Part shown: positions 7,911 through 53,779 of the stretch, in pieces | How the letters are laid out: every line of letters begins with the position of its first letter | How positions within the stretch are numbered: the stretch's first letter is position 1 | Assembly: GCA_014896315.1 (NCBI GenBank) | Contig: JADBKP010000005.1 | Span: 186,001 to 250,000 of the forward strand | From: Limnochordales bacterium | GTDB taxonomy: Bacteria > Bacillota > Limnochordia > Limnochordales > DUMU01 | Reading direction: 5' to 3' | Length of the DNA: 64,000 bases | The notes under the pieces: model-generated | Seen by the model: only the letters and a program-made list of their open reading frames with translations | What the model was told of the DNA's origin: nothing | Databases searched by the model: none | Translations under genes and position numbers: made by a program

Positions 7911-10031
7911 TCAAGGTACAAGGTGCAACGCGACTACCAGCAGGTCGATCAGCTTGATACCGGCGAACGGGACAATCAACCCGCCCAGGCCATAGATCAG
8001 GAGATTGCGCCGCAGCAGTGCGGCCGCTCCCAAGGGCCGGTATTGCACGCCGCGCAAGGCGAGCGGGATCAACGCCACGATGATCAACGCATTGAAGATC
8101 ACCGCCGATAGGATGGCGCTGGCGGGCGAGTCCAGGTGCATCACGTTGAGACGATCCAGCACCGGGTAGGTGGTGGAGAACATGGCGGGGATGATGGCAA
8201 AGTACTTAGCCACGTCGTTGGCTATGCTAAACGTGGTGAGTGCGCCCCGGGTGATCAGCAACTGTTTGCCGATCTCTACCACCTCGAGCAGCTTGGTCGG
8301 GTTGCTATCCAGGTCGACCATGTTGCCGGCTTCCTTGGCAGCTTGCGTGCCGCTATTCATAGCGACTCCTACATCGGCCTGCGCCAGGGCGGGAGCATCG
8401 TTGGTACCGTCTCCGATCATGGCGACCAGGTGGCCCTCCGCCTGGTACTTGCGGATCACCTGTAGCTTGGTCTCCGGGGTTGCCTCTGCCACGAACTCAT
8501 CCACTCCTGCTTCGGCGGCAATGGCGGCCGCGGTCAGAGGATTGTCGCCCGTGATCATGACGGTGCGGATGCCCATCCGCCGCAGTTCCGCAAAACGCTC
8601 TTTGATCCCGCCCTTGACTACGTCCTTGAGATGGATGATTCCCAGGACGCGTGCTCCATCAGCAACCGCCAGGGGTGTGCCGCCGCTCTTGGCGACGTCG
8701 GCAGCTATTGCCAGAACCTCGGCGGGGATGGAACCACCCTGACGTTCTACAAAGGCTTTGATGGCTTCCACCGCGCCCTTGCGAATCTGCCGCTTTTGAC
8801 CATCACTTCCCACTTGAAGGTCCACTCCGCTCATCCGAGTCTGTGCGGTGAAGGGCACGAAGGTCGCTCCAATCTGGCGCAGGTCGCGACCGCGCAGCCC
8901 ATACTGCTCCTTCGCCAGGACGACAATGCTGCGGCCTTCAGGAGTCTCGTCGGCCAGCGAGGCCAGCTGGGCGGCGTTTGCCAGTTCAGCGGCGGTGACA
9001 CCGGGGGCGGGGATGAACTCCCTGGCCATACGGTTACCCAGCGTGATCGTTCCTGTTTTGTCCAGAAGCAGGACATCCACATCGCCTGCTGCTTCTACCG
9101 CATGTCCGGAAAGGGCCAGCACGTTGCGGCGGACCAGGCGATCCATGCCCGCTATCCCGATGGCGCTCAGTAAAGCACCAATAGTAGTGGGCGCCAAACA
9201 GACCAGCAGGGCGACCAGCACGGGAAGGGAGACGGTGGCGCGGGAGTAGCGGGCAAATGGTTCAAGGGTGGCCACAGCCAGCAGGAAAATGATGGTCAAG
9301 CCGGTCAGCAGGACCATCAAGGCGACTTCGTTGGGAGTTTTCTGGCGTCTGGCCCCCTCCACTAGGGAAATCATCCGGTCGAGAAAAGTTTCCCCCGGGT
9401 TAGCAGTGATCCGGATCTTGATTTGATCGGAAATCACCCGGGTGCCACCGGTGACAGCGCTGCGATCTCCGCCCGCCTCACGAATCACCGGGGCGGATTC
9501 GCCAGTGATCGCGCTTTCGTCTACGGACGCGATTCCTTCCACGATTTCGCCATCGCCGGGGATGATATCACCCGCCTCGGCCAGTACCAGGTCACCCTGG
9601 CGCAAGGTAGAGCTCGGCACGATCTCGATGCGCAAGGATCCGTCTGCGTTGGTCCCGACAATCTTCTTGGCTTTGGTTTCGGCACGCGTGCGTCGCAGGC
9701 TGTCTGCGTGTGCCTTACCGCGCGCCTCGGCGATGGACTCCGCGAAGTTGGCGAATAAGACAGTAAACCAAAGCCAAAGGGTGATTTGCGCATCAAATCC
9801 GAGCAGGGCTCGCCAGCCGGTGGTGATGATATTCTGCAGGACTACACCGGTCGTTAGCAGTGCACCCACCTCGACGACAAACATCACCGGGTTGTGCAGC
9901 ATATAGACCGGGTTCAATTTCCGGAGTGAATCTCGGGCAGCCTGCCTCACCATGATGGTGGAGATCCCCTCCCGGTCTGAGGCCGTCTGCGATCGACGGG
10001 ACGTATGCTTTGAATTCCGTGATACAGCCAT
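7911..10031 (-). CDS. kdpB: potassium-transporting P-type ATPase subunit KdpB
   Basis: 706-residue catalytic subunit of the Kdp pump, which hydrolyses ATP to drive potassium through KdpA. The phosphorylated Asp lies in [14 protein letters not shown], the actuator loop in [10 protein letters not shown], and the hinge in [18 protein letters not shown]. The number and spacing of hydrophobic segments fits seven membrane helices. A basic N-terminal stretch of about 25 residues precedes the first conserved part ([15 protein letters not shown]). GGGAG lies about 12 bases upstream of the ATG. Middle gene of the kdpFABCDE operon; all catalytic motifs are intact. Confidence 0.96.
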
Positions 10032-10174
10032 GGAAAAGCGGTCACTCCCTTAACTGTTCCATCGTTGTGCCTTCGCTACTCAGTTCCATTGCCAAGCCTT
10101 TGTTGTTCGGCCTGACTCGGCCGGCGGTGGGTATCTCTCATGCCAAACGGTCGGCACATATCGGAACACAATCG

Positions 10175-11887
10175 TCAGAATGCCCGGCCCGCCCACATCA
10201 GCAAGTGCTCCACGATGGGGCCAAGAGCCAGAGCGGGGAGGAAAGTAAGCGCTCCGACCAGAATGATCACCCCTGCCAGAAGGGCGGCAAAGAGCACACC
10301 CGTGGTGGGAAACGTGCCGGGACCAGCAGGCACCGCCTTCTTGGCTGCCATGTGGCCGGCAATGGCCAGGACGGGCAGAATCACTCCGAATCGTCCTAGA
10401 ATCATCTGAATTCCGAGATAGAGGGTGTAAAATGGCGTGGTCGAGTCGAGCCCCGCGAAGGCGCTGCCATTGTTCGCAGCAGTGGAAGTGAACGCGTAAA
10501 GGATCTCACTGAGCCCGTGCGGACCGGGGTTCAGGATGCTCCCCGTACCGGCGGGTAAGACTGCGGCAACAGCGGTGCCGATCAGGATCAGAACACCGGG
10601 GATCAGGACGCCGATGGTCGCCATCTTCATCTCAAAAGGCTCGATCTTCTTGCCCAGGTACTCGGGGGTGCGGCCGACCATCAGCCCGACGATGAAGACG
10701 GTAACGATTACAAAAAGCAGGATGCCGTAGAGACCCGACCCTGCACCGCCAAAGGCTACCTCCCCCAGCATCATCAGGGTCAGGGTAACCAATCCTCCCA
10801 GGGGCGTAAGACTGTCGTGCATGCCGTTGACCGCACCGCACGAGGCGGCAGTGGTGACGGTAGCAAAGAGCGCGGTGCTGCCAATGCCGAACCGGATCTC
10901 CTTCCCTTCCAGGGCGGTCGGACCAGTCAAGCCCAGAGCTGCCAGCTGCGGGTTGCCGACCATTTCACTCTGGTAGATAAGGGCAAACGCTGCTAAAAAG
11001 ATGATCAGCATCGCTCCGTAAAGAACCCATCCCTGGCGGGTATCGCCCACCATTTTCCCCAGTGTGTAGGTCAATCCGGCGCCAATGGACAGGATGGCGA
11101 CCATCTCCAAAAAATTGGTGAGCGGAGTGGGGTTTTCGAACGGGTGCGACGAGTTGGCGTTAAAGATGCCGCCGCCGTTGGTTCCCAGCACCTTGATGGC
11201 CTCCTGCGAGGCGGCGGGTGCGACGGCAATGCGTTGGATCTCGCCCTCGAGGGTGGTAACCGTATGATAGGGAGCGAACGTCTGAACGACACCCTGAGAA
11301 ACCAGGACCAGGGCCAACAGGAACGAGAAGGGCAAGAGAATCCAGAGCACGCTGCGGGTCAAGTCAAACCAGAAGTTGCCGATCCCGTCGGCGTTACGGC
11401 GCGCCAGGCCGCGGATGAAGGCAATGGCTACGGCGATTCCCGTCGCGGCCGACAAGAAGTTCTGCACCGTCAAAGCGGCCATCTGGGTCAGGTAGCTCAT
11501 GGTTGTCTCGCCGGCATACGCCTGCCAGTTGGTATTGGTGACGAAACTGGCCGCAGTGTTAAAAGCGATGGCGGGGGAGACAGCCGGCAGATGTTCGGGG
11601 TTGAAGGGCAAGACCCCCTGCATTCGTTGGATGAGGTAGACGGCCACAAGGCCGAGGGCGTTAAATGCCAGCAACGCCCGGGCGTACTGTTTCCACGTCA
11701 TCTCCTGATGACCGTCCACGCCCGCCAGACGGTAGAACCACTGCTCCACCGGCCTTAACACCGGGTCGAGGAGCGTCTTTTCGCCACTAAACACACGGGC
11801 CATGTATCCTCCGAGCAGCGGCGTGAGCGCTGTTAGAGTTATTACAAAGGCGGCGACCTCGATTAGATCCCACGTTGCGTTTCCCAT
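10175..11887 (-). CDS. kdpA: potassium-transporting ATPase subunit KdpA
   Basis: 570-residue potassium-selective channel-like subunit, related to the Trk/Ktr superfamily with four pore loops. Selectivity-filter-like segments are visible (TNTNWQAYAG; GTNGGGIFNANSSHPFENP; CGAVNGMHDSLTPLGG; STAANNGSAFAGL), in the usual order. About ten hydrophobic helices span the rest. ATG 11887 gives the family's typical N-terminus; an in-frame GTG at 11902 is possible, with neither having a strong ribosome site. It lies 63 bases after kdpF and 143 before kdpB. Confidence 0.95.
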   Translation of the reverse strand: MGNATWDLIEVAAFVITLTALTPLLGGYMARVFSGEKTLLDPVLRPVEQWFYRLAGVDGHQEMTWKQYARALLAFNALGLVAVYLIQRMQGVLPFNPEHLPAVSPAIAFNTAASFVTNTNWQAYAGETTMSYLTQMAALTVQNFLSAATGIAVAIAFIRGLARRNADGIGNFWFDLTRSVLWILLPFSFLLALVLVSQGVVQTFAPYHTVTTLEGEIQRIAVAPAASQEAIKVLGTNGGGIFNANSSHPFENPTPLTNFLEMVAILSIGAGLTYTLGKMVGDTRQGWVLYGAMLIIFLAAFALIYQSEMVGNPQLAALGLTGPTALEGKEIRFGIGSTALFATVTTAASCGAVNGMHDSLTPLGGLVTLTLMMLGEVAFGGAGSGLYGILLFVIVTVFIVGLMVGRTPEYLGKKIEPFEMKMATIGVLIPGVLILIGTAVAAVLPAGTGSILNPGPHGLSEILYAFTSTAANNGSAFAGLDSTTPFYTLYLGIQMILGRFGVILPVLAIAGHMAAKKAVPAGPGTFPTTGVLFAALLAGVIILVGALTFLPALALGPIVEHLLMWAGRAF

Positions 11888-11950
11888 GACCCCTCGCACC
11901 ACCTGTCGTTGTATCCGTCCCGAAACCTGCGCTGGCAGACCCGGGCCGGG

Positions 11951-12040
11951 CTATAAGTCCTCCGCCCTAATCAAGGCCCAGATCAGGTAGAGAAGCAGGG
12001 CAGCCGCCAGCAGACCGCCGATGATTATTTCCGTGTGCAT
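11951..12040 (-). CDS. kdpF: potassium-transporting ATPase subunit KdpF (29 aa)
   Basis: Tiny single-helix membrane protein that stabilises the KdpFABC complex. The ATG at 12038-12040 opens 29 codons ending in TAG: a short polar start (MHTE), one hydrophobic helix (IIIGGLLAAALLLYLIWAL) and a short charged tail (IRAEDL). Length and the helix followed by LIRAE match KdpF peptides, which are about 29 residues, and the position directly before kdpA is the canonical one. A purine-rich GGGGAGGGCAAG stretch lies 8 or more bases upstream and can serve as ribosome site. It completes the operon as kdpFABCDE. Confidence 0.88.
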   Translation of the reverse strand: MHTEIIIGGLLAAALLLYLIWALIRAEDL

Positions 12041-12356
12041 CGCAATATCTTGCCCTCCCCAAGGGGCTAAGATCCGCCCCAGCCTGTACGCTGCCTACAG
12101 TTTGCCGCGGCCGGCATCACTGGCCACCATTCGTTCGCCCACAGTTCCAATTCAATCAGGTGGGAAGTCAAGGGGATATCAAAAAACAGGACGCGAGTAG
12201 TCAAAAAGGCGTAAAAACAGGATTCCGACCGTCTCTGGATCCCCACCTTCTGCGCCTGTACCTGCCATTTCTAGCAACGAAGGTAACAAGGAGCGGTCCG
12301 TTCACCTGCCGAATACCGCATAGGATCTAGTAGCGCAGCGGAGGGGGGAGCCGGCC
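12041..12356. promoter_or_regulatory. divergent control region between kdpF and cdaA
   Basis: About 316 bases separate the first kdp gene from the c-di-AMP cyclase gene, so both promoters must lie here. The part at 12175-12225 is unusually A/T-rich for this genome. It holds two copies of AAAAACAGGA (12182-12191 and 12213-12222) 31 bases apart. On the minus strand a TTGACT (about 12164-12169) could be a -35 element for kdp, but I find no good -10. I searched for the conserved core of the ydaO c-di-AMP riboswitch on both strands and did not find it. Confidence 0.5.
12200..12219 (-). promoter_or_regulatory. candidate KdpE site (paired T-tracts)
   Basis: Read on the minus strand the bases are TGTTTTTACGCCTTTTTGAC: two T-runs, each followed by AC or GAC, about ten bases apart. 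The known enteric KdpE site upstream of kdpFABC is likewise a T-rich tandem repeat of the TTTATA/TTTACA kind. The site is about 160 bases upstream of kdpF. The match is by pattern only. Confidence 0.3.
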
Positions 12357-13190
12357 ACGAAAGCGGCACTACGACCCATAGATGTGGTCGATATCTTGAT
12401 CGTTGCCGCGGTGCTCTACCGCCTCCTCGTACTCCTGCGCGGTACGCGGGCAGTAGTGCTCTTGCGCGGCTTTGCCCTCCTGCTGGGTGCGGCGGCAGCC
12501 AGTCGTTGGCTTGGGTTACGCACGGTCAACTGGCTGCTGGAGAGGGCCCTGACCGCTCTGCTGGTCGCCCTCCCGGTGGTTTTCTACCCGGAAGTCCGGC
12601 GGGCGCTGGAAAGGCTGGGGAGGGGAGAACTCTTCCGCTGGAACGGCCAGAGCTTCTGGCTTGCCAGCCTCTTTGGCCGGCCCGAAGAGGCGGGCGGTTT
12701 TCAGAAAGTGGTAGAGGCGGTGGTAAAAGCGGCGGGGGAGCTATCCCGGCGACGGGTGGGGGCGCTGATCGCTATCGAACAGGAGGTTGGACTGGAGGAG
12801 TTCGTGGAAACGGGGATTCGCCTGGATGCCGTGGTCACTCCCGAACTGCTGATAAACATCTTTGAGCCCAATACCCCTTTGCATGACGGCGCGGTGATCA
12901 TCCGAAACGGCCGGGTGGTTGCTGCTGCCTGTTTCTTGCCCCTTGCCCGTCCCGACCAGGTTGAGCGGAAGATGGGCAGCCGCCACCGGGCAGCCCTCGG
13001 GCTGGCGGAGGAATCCGACGCGCTGGTGATAGTGGTTTCGGAGGAGACGGGCCGGATTTCCGGCGCCCGGGAGGGCAGGATCGATTGGGATCTGGGAGAG
13101 GAGGGGCTGAAGGAGTGGTTGAACAAGGCCGAGCGGAGCGAGGCCGGCAGGCCTGCCGCGGCCGGCGTGAGAGGGATGAGTCCTCACTAG
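12357..13190 (+). CDS. cdaA: diadenylate cyclase CdaA, probable ACG start
   Basis: Membrane-bound enzyme that joins two ATP to form cyclic di-AMP, the messenger controlling potassium and turgor. Three N-terminal hydrophobic helices (VDILIVAAVLYRLLVLL onward) precede the DAC domain with both active motifs: DGAVIIRNG and RHRAALG. The first ATG/GTG/TTG codon in frame is GTG 12384, which starts inside the first helix and has no ribosome site. An in-frame ACG at 12357 lies exactly 6 bases after GGAG in a strong GGAGGGGGGAG and adds TKAALRPID, giving 277 residues, the family norm. I therefore place the start at ACG. Followed by a cdaR remnant and glmM, as in other firmicutes. Confidence 0.88.
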   Translation, partial: TKAALRPIDVVDILIVAAVLYRLLVLLRGTRAVVLLRGFALLLGAAAASRWLGLRTVNWLLERALTALLVALPVVFYPEVRRALERLGRGELFRWNGQSFWLASLFGRPEEAGGFQKVVEAVVKAAGELSRRRVGALIAIEQEVGLEEFVETGIRLDAVVTPELLINIFEPNTPLHDGAVIIRNGRVVAAACFLPLARPDQVERKMGSRHRAALGLAEESDALVIVVSEETGRISGAREGRIDWDLGEEGLKEWLNKAERSEAGRPAAAGVRGMSPH

Positions 13191-13366
13191 AGCGATCAGA
13201 CTCATCGCCCGGGTATGAGTACTGGCGGGGACTCTGGGAGCGGCTTGTACGCTGGTGGGTGGCGGCGGACCTCTCATTGCGATTGCTCGCTTTGCTCCTG
13301 GCAATTCTGTTGTGGCTCCTGGCCCGGGGAGTATCGCAGGATCGGCTGATGGGTCTGGGAGTTTGA
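13085..13366 (+). pseudogene. cdaR: truncated cdaR (YbbR) remnant, membrane anchor only
   Basis: Between cdaA and glmM, where firmicutes carry cdaR, a short frame encodes one strong membrane helix (LSLRLLALLLAILLWLLARG) that matches the N-terminal anchor of CdaR/YbbR proteins. It then stops at 13364-13366 (TGA) without any of the extracellular YbbR repeats; the 74 bases before glmM do not contain them in any frame. The start is uncertain: the frame is open into the end of cdaA (TTG 13085, GTG about 13115) and no ATG lies between the cdaA stop and the helix. CdaR normally binds CdaA and GlmM and tunes c-di-AMP synthesis. Either a decayed gene or a minimal one-helix CdaA partner. Confidence 0.55.
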
Positions 13367-13442
13367 TGGGCAGGGCGCGGGTTCCTGTTGATCTGGCCTG
13401 ACTGGAGAGAAGATGTGTAGTGAGAGTTGCAGGTGAAGGATG

Positions 13443-14795
13443 ATGAAACGTCTTTTTGGCACGGACGGCGTACGTGGTGTCGCAAACCGTGAGATCACCC
13501 CGGAGCTTGCTTTTCGGCTGGGTCGGGCTGCGGTGGCGGTGCTGGCCGCCGATGTAGAAAGGCCGCGCATTGTCGTAGGCCGGGACACCCGGGCATCCGG
13601 GGAGATGCTGCAGTCGGCGCTGGTCGCCGGTTTTCTCTCTGCCGGGGCCGACTGCCTGGATGCCGGCGTGATACCGACTCCCGCGGTGGCCTACCTTACC
13701 CGCCTGCGCCAGGCCCAGGCAGGGGCGGTGATCTCCGCCAGCCACAACCCCGTAGAGGATAACGGCATCAAGTTTTTCGGGCCGAACGGGTACAAACTCT
13801 CCGATGAGCTGGAGGCACGCATCGAGGAGCTCGTCTATGACCTGGAGCGGCGGCAGGACCATCTGCCGCGACCGATCGGAGGTGATGTCGGCCGGCTGAT
13901 ACCTGACAAGCGGGCAGCCAACGACTATCTTGACTTCCTGCTCTCCTGTGCCCGTTTCCGCCTGAACGGCCTGCGCATCGTGATCGACACGGCCTATGGG
14001 GCGGCGTTCCGGCTGGCTCCCCGGCTCTTTAGCCGGTTAGGAGCGGATGTACTTGCTTTACACCTGAGCCCCAACGGCACCAACATAAACGTCGGTTGCG
14101 GTTCAACCCACCCGGAGCTGGCGGCGGAAAGGGTTCGGCAGGTAGGCGCAGACGTCGGCCTCACCTTTGACGGGGATGCGGACCGCCTGATTGCCATCGA
14201 TGAACAGGGGAATATCGTTGACGGTGACCACATCCTGGCCATCTGTGCACTGGACCGGTTGCGACGGCAACAGTTGCCCGGCAAGGCGGTGGTCGCCACC
14301 GTCTACTCCAACCTGGGCTTGCGCAAAGCCCTGCTTGACGCGGGAGGAGAGCTTCTCATCACCGGAGCTGGCGACCGTCAGGTGATGGAAGCCCTGCTGG
14401 CCCACAATCTGGTACTGGGCGGTGAACAGTCAGGTCATATTGTTTTCCTGGAGCACCATACTACAGGCGATGGTATGCTCACCGCCATCCAGTTGCTGGA
14501 TGTGATGATGCGGACCGGTCGGCGCCTCTCCGACCTGGCTGCGCAGATGCCTTCGTTTCCGCAGATGCTGGTCAACGTACGGGTGAGGACGAAGGAGAAC
14601 TGGGATAAGATCCCGGCGGTGCAGGAAGCTTTGGCCCGGGCTCGAGAGACGCTGGGGGCGGAGGGGGAGCTTAATGTCCGGCCGTCGGGGACAGAGCCCG
14701 TGATCCGGGTCATGGCCCAGGGACCGGAGAGGGCGGCAGTGGAGGCCGCAGTGGAGATGGTCACGCGGGCGTTGGAGGTGAGCCTGGGGGTGTAG
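13443..14795 (+). CDS. glmM: phosphoglucosamine mutase GlmM
   Basis: Converts glucosamine-6-P to glucosamine-1-P for UDP-GlcNAc and peptidoglycan synthesis. Full-length alpha-D-phosphohexomutase: start KRLFGTDGVRG, phospho-serine in ISASHNPVEDNGIKFFG, metal loop DGDADR, sugar-binding GGEQSGHI and the C-terminal phosphate loop RPSGTEPVIRV. Two ATGs stand in tandem (13440, 13443); the second gives the better distance to GAAGG and places the active serine at residue 100, as in Bacillus subtilis. GlmM is known to bind CdaA and lower c-di-AMP synthesis in several firmicutes. It precedes glmS by 6 bases. Confidence 0.97.
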   Translation: MKRLFGTDGVRGVANREITPELAFRLGRAAVAVLAADVERPRIVVGRDTRASGEMLQSALVAGFLSAGADCLDAGVIPTPAVAYLTRLRQAQAGAVISASHNPVEDNGIKFFGPNGYKLSDELEARIEELVYDLERRQDHLPRPIGGDVGRLIPDKRAANDYLDFLLSCARFRLNGLRIVIDTAYGAAFRLAPRLFSRLGADVLALHLSPNGTNINVGCGSTHPELAAERVRQVGADVGLTFDGDADRLIAIDEQGNIVDGDHILAICALDRLRRQQLPGKAVVATVYSNLGLRKALLDAGGELLITGAGDRQVMEALLAHNLVLGGEQSGHIVFLEHHTTGDGMLTAIQLLDVMMRTGRRLSDLAAQMPSFPQMLVNVRVRTKENWDKIPAVQEALARARETLGAEGELNVRPSGTEPVIRVMAQGPERAAVEAAVEMVTRALEVSLGV

Positions 14796-53014: not shown

Positions 53015-53779
53015 GTGAGTCGCACGGTTTTCCGGGCTGTCCTCTTTGATTTCGACGGAACCCTGGTAGATACCATACCGGTCATTCTGGACTGCCTGGA
53101 GCAATCCTGGCGAGAAGTGATGGCAGACGCAGACGTGCCGGCAGGTGCTGAGTTCTTGAGCCTGGTCGGCAAGCCGCTGGAAACGATGATGGTGGAGCTT
53201 GTCACTCCCCGCTGGCAGCCTTGTATGCCGGCCATTGCGGAACTCACCGATAAGCTGGTATCTGCTTACCGGCGTCGGTATGAGACTGTGTCGCTGGAAG
53301 CTCGGGCGTTTCCGGGCACCACAAAGCTCCTTGAAGATCTGGGAGCCATGGAAGTACGGCGGGGGATCGTCACAAACAAAATCCGCCGCACCACTCTGCG
53401 GCAACTTCAACACCTGGGGCTGCGGTCCGAGTTTGACGTGGTTGTGACCGTTGAAGACGTCACTTGCCCCAAGCCGCACGCCGAGCCCCTTCAAGTTGCC
53501 GCCGAGCAGCTGGGCGTGAAGCTGGAAGAGACCGTATATGTTGGTGATACGGTTGCCGATGTGATGGCGGCTCGGAATGCCGGGGTGGGGTGCGTGGCCA
53601 TCGTTAGCTGGGGCGTGGCCGGGCGGTTGTACCGCCTCGCCCATGGCGACGAGCCCTGTGACCCGGCGCAGCTGACCGAGCCTGCTGCCGACATGCTATT
53701 GAAGGAGTGGGACTCCCTCATTCGTTTGATCCATTCCGGCTTCGGCACAACTCCGGGGTTGGATACTTACTGTCGGTGA
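53015..53779 (+). CDS. HAD-superfamily phosphatase (PpaX/Gph-like)
   Basis: Phosphatase of small phosphorylated compounds. HAD motifs: nucleophile Asp in LFDFDGTLVDT, VTNK for motif II, CPKPHAEPL (Lys) and YVGDTVADVMAARNAG for motif IV; the cap is alpha-helical (subfamily IA). 254 residues, longer than PpaX (about 216) because of a C-terminal tail after the usual end. The start is unclear: GTG 53015 is only 3 bases after AGGAGG; GTG 53000 has no site; the conserved part begins at VFRAVLFDFDGT, only a few codons later. Stands alone. Confidence 0.85.
   Translation: MSRTVFRAVLFDFDGTLVDTIPVILDCLEQSWREVMADADVPAGAEFLSLVGKPLETMMVELVTPRWQPCMPAIAELTDKLVSAYRRRYETVSLEARAFPGTTKLLEDLGAMEVRRGIVTNKIRRTTLRQLQHLGLRSEFDVVVTVEDVTCPKPHAEPLQVAAEQLGVKLEETVYVGDTVADVMAARNAGVGCVAIVSWGVAGRLYRLAHGDEPCDPAQLTEPAADMLLKEWDSLIRLIHSGFGTTPGLDTYCR

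Follow-up and report, generated by a model that had tools for sequence, protein, structure and literature searches.

An ACG codon behind a strong Shine-Dalgarno sequence is the likely start of the diadenylate cyclase gene cdaA in a Limnochordales bacterium

The stretch analysed here, hereafter the window, comprises 64,000 nt of G000 (C16:186001-250000), a 2.59 Mb draft genome of a Limnochordales bacterium in 20 contigs, and carries cdaA, which encodes the diadenylate cyclase (DAC) CdaA. The product matches the NCBIfam equivalog TIGR00159 with 239.5 bits (cut-off 188.8) and contains the catalytic DAC domain PF02457 (146.6 bits, cut-off 27), including the motifs known as DGA and RHR, read in the sequence. 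The N-terminal transmembrane domain CdaA_N (PF19293) scores 22.8 bits, marginally below its cut-off of 23.8. CdaA/DacA diadenylate cyclases are encoded in the cdaA-cdaR-glmM locus. The present gene resembles them in its DAC domain, its N-terminal helices and the glmM downstream, but differs from them in its putative ACG start and in a cdaR cut to a helix stub (Table 1). Comparisons were made above all with G001, the sole other compared genome of the same genus, and with G002, from the sister genus; G000, G001 and G002 are the family referred to below. Relative to G001, the ratio of nonsynonymous to synonymous differences per site (pN/pS) of cdaA is 0.28 over the whole gene, with synonymous sites saturated; by this measure, cdaA is under purifying selection.

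The cdaA frame is closed upstream by a TAG, after which it runs through the codons GAT CTA GTA GCG CAG, then CGG AGG GGG GAG, CCG GCC and ACG, and finally AAA GCG GCA CTA CGA CCC ATA GAT up to a GTG at 12384. As an earlier note on this DNA had claimed, this GTG is the first canonical codon of the frame, no ATG, GTG or TTG being found between the stop and it, and the in-frame ACG at 12357 lies 6 nt (CCGGCC) after the GGAG (12347-12350) that ends a Shine-Dalgarno (SD) stretch. To express pairing to the anti-SD we used a home-made score, the SD index; reference canonical starts picked by the same index in the sampled part of the genome have a median of 14 and a 10th percentile of 8. ACG 12357 scores 17 and GTG 12384 scores 7, below that 10th percentile, in line with the earlier statement that the GTG has no ribosome site. 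Among in-frame codons near gene starts, about 3.4% have an SD index of at least 16 and 1.5% are ACG; the SD-ACG arrangement at cdaA appears to exceed chance, and it recurs in G001. The GTG had been placed within the first membrane helix. It does fall at helix 1, though at the N-terminal edge and not deep inside. Likewise, the ACG restores the N-terminus KAALRPID as proposed, but the sequence continues as KAALRPID-V-VDIL, the first V being encoded by the GTG itself. Since residue 10 of the ACG-started product aligns with position 14 of the TIGR00159 profile, more N-terminal residues are expected.

Table 1. Features of the cdaA locus, in window coordinates
Feature	Position	Strand	Remarks
cdaA, diadenylate cyclase CdaA	12357..13190	+	277 aa if started at ACG
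TAG, in-frame upstream stop closing the cdaA frame	12321..12323	+	read from the sequence
SD stretch GGAGGGGGGAG	12340..12350	+	final GGAG, then 6 nt, then ACG
Proposed cdaA start codon ACG	12357..12359	+	no other in-frame codon from the stop to the conserved N-terminus is an SD-backed candidate
Codons 5-9 (L R P I D)	12369..12383	+	protein kept, third positions diverged relative to G001
GTG, first canonical in-frame codon	12384..12386	+	poor SD; judged an internal Val codon
cdaR stub	13115..13366	+	open reading frame with a single membrane helix, no YbbR domains; exact start uncertain; G001 and G002 have matching stubs
glmM, phosphoglucosamine mutase	13440..14795	+	usual cda-locus neighbour; TIGR01455, 548.2 bits

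Comparison of cdaA across relatives places the start upstream of the GTG. We examined 64 loci, 61 of which have an alignable N-terminus (L058, L061 and L065 were left out as unalignable, and L067 was used for L027). In 60 of these 61, a canonical start is found at or before alignment column 9, that is, before the position of GTG 12384, and only the window lacks one. An Asp occupies column 9, which immediately precedes the GTG, in 44 of the 61 loci, and column 12 in 59. Within the genus, codons 5-9 read LRPID in G000 and LRPVD in G001 and are identical at 3/5, 5/5 and 0/5 of their first, second and third positions, respectively. Since these codons diverge synonymously between the two species, translation would begin upstream of GTG 12384. 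Counting synonymous differences ahead of the first canonical G000 start, cdaA has 4, in 4 of its 5 codons there, which ties for the second-highest value among 186 ortholog pairs.

In G001, the sequence following the in-frame stop of cdaA is CCGGGGAGGCGCGC-ACG-ACG, i.e. GGGGAG, 6 nt and ACG, which is the arrangement of the window. This ACG has an SD index of 16, compared with 5 and 8 for the in-frame TTGs downstream of it, and a start there implies a Pro-rich N-terminal extension of 16-17 residues. We regard the G001 arrangement as support, not proof, for an ACG start at cdaA. In the sister genus, cdaA begins with a TTG behind a strong SD (index 21); within the family, the gene has SD-ACG in G000 and G001 and TTG in G002. 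Most relatives of the class have a GTG or ATG located 1-2 codons downstream of the ACG column, GTG being the majority choice. Because of the TTG in G002 and the prevailing GTG of the class, the ancestral start was probably GTG or TTG, not ATG, and the earlier suggestion that the ACG is a point change from ATG finds no support.

A scan of sampled genes without a good canonical start brought up another case, a sensor histidine kinase with HAMP, PAS, HisKA and HATPase domains (L086:12261, i.e. G000:C16:112261; L209:1501; L210:1501). The G001 and G002 proteins are 67% and 52% identical to that of G000. In all three family genomes an ACG occupies the same column (SD index 20, 16 and 23), and there is no ATG, GTG or TTG between the upstream stop and this ACG. 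The frame opens shortly before the ACG, directly behind what looks by eye like the end of a response regulator. The first canonical codon comes 6, 17 and 14 codons past the ACG and would truncate the first membrane helix. Over the next 23 codons, third positions match in just 9/23, 4/23 and 10/23 in the three pairwise comparisons, whereas the ACG is identical throughout. The comparison used 26 of 30 loci and, as L248 gave no match, yielded 25 rows; all 22 other relatives have an ATG or GTG with an SD at most 3 codons from the place of the ACG. Furthermore, of 319 reciprocal-best pairs, just one, the kinase, combines a same-column ACG behind a strong SD in both genomes with the lack of a good canonical start in each; cdaA was missed by this test since its N-termini differ in length. 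The kinase provides independent support, as a putative ACG start separate from that of cdaA and conserved in the same bacterial family.

Collectively, these data favour ACG 12357 as a real, weak, SD-driven start of cdaA, with a probability of roughly three in four. The lack of canonical starts, the SD with its spacing, the recurrence of both and the coding signature upstream of GTG 12384 can be read directly in the DNA, and the earlier proposal of the ACG gains from the upstream synonymous divergence, the identical SD-ACG spacing in G001 and the independent kinase ACG. Since the design recurs at cdaA in G001 and at the kinase in three family genomes, the ACG is probably a true start passed on by descent, not an error; a regulatory meaning is a hypothesis built on it. 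In such initiation, the strong SD at 12340-12350 would position the 30S subunit at the ACG, and the initiator formyl-Met-tRNA (anticodon CAU) would accept it despite the second-base mismatch, giving formyl-Met at position 1 with a low yield. We assume, from known biology, that the ordinary initiator tRNA reads the codon; sensitivity to initiation factor IF3 and a low CdaA level would also be predicted on that basis. A special tRNA seems less likely, the tRNA-Thr(CGT) in the sampled part looking ordinary. This combination of weak codon and strong SD would be common to cdaA in both compared species of the genus and to the kinase in all three family genomes.

Such a start could keep CdaA scarce. 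It is plausible that it also keeps cyclic di-AMP (c-di-AMP) low, because near-cognate starts with a strong SD give about one-tenth of AUG output in Staphylococcus aureus, for AUU/AUA and not ACG, according to the available text of PMC13009471. On the other hand, low CdaA need not mean low c-di-AMP, since the genome also carries DisA (502 bits). CdaA was found in three of the 14 compared genomes of the order, all three belonging to the family; the other 11 (G003-G013) show merely a weak DisA-like match, CdaA being missing, and for this reason CdaA looks dispensable in this order. A weak cdaA start may be tolerated or even favoured beside DisA, as would fit a CdaA with a minor or specialised function there. 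Each of G000, G001 and G002 has one c-di-AMP riboswitch; in the window, neither this riboswitch nor any other Rfam family was found at the gathering threshold.

Several observations weigh against an ACG start. According to in vitro work, IF3 accepts nothing but Watson-Crick pairing at codon bases one and two (PMC10158994), which disfavours efficient initiation at ACG. In the sampled DNA of G000 and G001, ACG is not enriched after SDs. Genes without a good canonical start have an ACG with a strong SD in 5/50 cases in G000 (background 3.6%, uncorrected P 0.03), 4/84 in G001 (4.2%) and 1/25 in the G004 control (4.4%). The kinase of G000 has an ATT just before its ACG, a possible alternative start. 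At cdaA itself, G001 retains two in-frame TTGs without SD that might serve and, given its extension of 16-17 residues, homology of the two ACGs rests on SD and spacing. Finally, a product started at GTG 12384 would keep the greater part of helix 1 and, with 238.2 bits, still clears the TIGR00159 cut-off.

This last point favours translation from GTG 12384, the first canonical in-frame codon, either from a leaderless mRNA or with little or no help from an SD, everything ahead of the GTG being untranslated. We consider this improbable, given that the SD index of the GTG lies below the 10th percentile of canonical starts, that the codons preceding it diverge synonymously between species, that the other 60 alignable loci have a canonical start upstream, and that no promoter-like match occurs in 11850-13500. 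Equally small is the chance that cdaA is decaying, its start lost and the gene hardly or not translated. The absence of CdaA from most of the order, the reduced cdaR and the presence of DisA would fit such decay, but the full-length open frame, its pN/pS, the full match to the CdaA model and the conservation of a kinase with the same type of start speak against it. A sequencing or assembly error hiding an ATG or another canonical start is very unlikely: a single base in a draft genome of this kind would do, but the same SD-ACG is found in G001 and the kinase ACG in three genomes. Nor would a start arise from an indel in the G-run, because no canonical start in any of the frames is open into it; rescue of cdaA by indel or frameshift was rejected on this ground. 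Least credible of all is another non-standard route, namely initiation at ATA 12378, before which no SD-like stretch is seen by eye, or a start in another frame followed by frameshift or ribosome bypass, which was proposed for the ACG case of phage Corndog (available text of PMC4351075) but for which no start in any frame opens into the region.

If ACG 12357 does initiate cdaA, such initiation seems limited to a few genes. Lineage-wide use of ACG was rejected, since neither the SD-codon, nor the start-poor-gene, nor the 319-pair test gave a general enrichment. It is an evenly balanced proposition that the family uses ACG as an inherited start of selected low-abundance signalling proteins with strong SDs, as an IF3-sensitive throttle, gene callers hiding the true N-termini. 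Other near-cognate starts are seen in the same genome. The infC gene of G000 begins at ATT after an SD (L070 1930-2060, minus strand); AUU-type infC starts are a well-known autoregulated case, resembling the ACG here as a near-cognate codon after an SD but differing by the third-base mismatch and the well-known mechanism. Similarly, spoIIIAF probably starts at CTG in G000 (L120:1498, SD index 25; L121:1495 in G001, 22), where the sister genus has GTG; its alignment to TIGR02896 begins at residue 2, with a score under the cut-off. At rapZ of G001 (L117:1450), a GTG with poor support is likewise preceded by an ACG that follows a strong SD; this ACG is absent in G000 (window ~30791) and is not claimed as a start.

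Precedents are of two kinds. In PMC13009471, near-cognate AUU/AUA starts of S. aureus with an extended SD, some of them conserved, reach in poor medium about 10% of the output of AUG; the cases given for S. aureus and Bacillus subtilis are infC (AUA), cvfC1 (AUU) and ccpN (AUA), with measurements for cvfC1, ccpN and citZ. The present starts resemble these in a weak codon rescued by a strong SD, in cross-species conservation and in the regulatory nature of the genes, but those codons mismatch at the third base and have measured output, whereas the mismatch of the ACG falls on the second base and its use as a start is predicted from sequence. Closest among the precedents found comes mycobacteriophage Corndog with its tape-measure gene (PMC4351075), where peptides begin directly after an ACG replacing the ATG of relatives. 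No obvious drop in expression was seen, the authors left open ACG initiation versus bypass, and they were aware of no other mycobacterial gene with an ACG start. The likeness lies in a putative ACG where relatives have ATG; Corndog offers a phage gene with peptides, whereas the cases here are chromosomal genes with strong SDs in several genomes. As far as the accessible text of the literature searched goes, we found no report of an ACG start for cdaA or for a bacterial chromosomal kinase.

The second base of ACG does not pair with the initiator anticodon, and IF3 reportedly polices this position; a conserved chromosomal ACG start would, if true, add to the start codons that bacteria use in nature. 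It would also imply a codon-level throttle on signalling proteins whose true N-termini are missed by gene callers. NCBI table 11 does not list ACG as a start codon, and standard gene callers are not known to accept it.

Around cdaA, the motif ADLSxRLLALxLAxxLWL of the cdaR stub is kept between cdaA and glmM in the three family genomes (by eye; second locus L067 ~2206-2411). The YbbR domain PF07949 was found in none of the three genomes, whose cdaA loci have no linked cdaR with YbbR domains; cdaR linkage is usual for CdaA and not required for its identity. The CdaA of G001 carries a Gly/Thr/Ala-rich insertion of ~40 residues between its membrane and cyclase domains (L067 ~1535-1700). In G000, kdpA and kdpB are divergent to cdaA (window 7911-12340), while the upstream gene differs in G001 and G002 (cimA/leuA-like, by eye). 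Elsewhere in the window (53015-53026), the AGGAGG of a HAD phosphatase-like gene is followed after only 3 nt by a GTG at 53015 and after 12 nt by an in-frame ACG at 53024.
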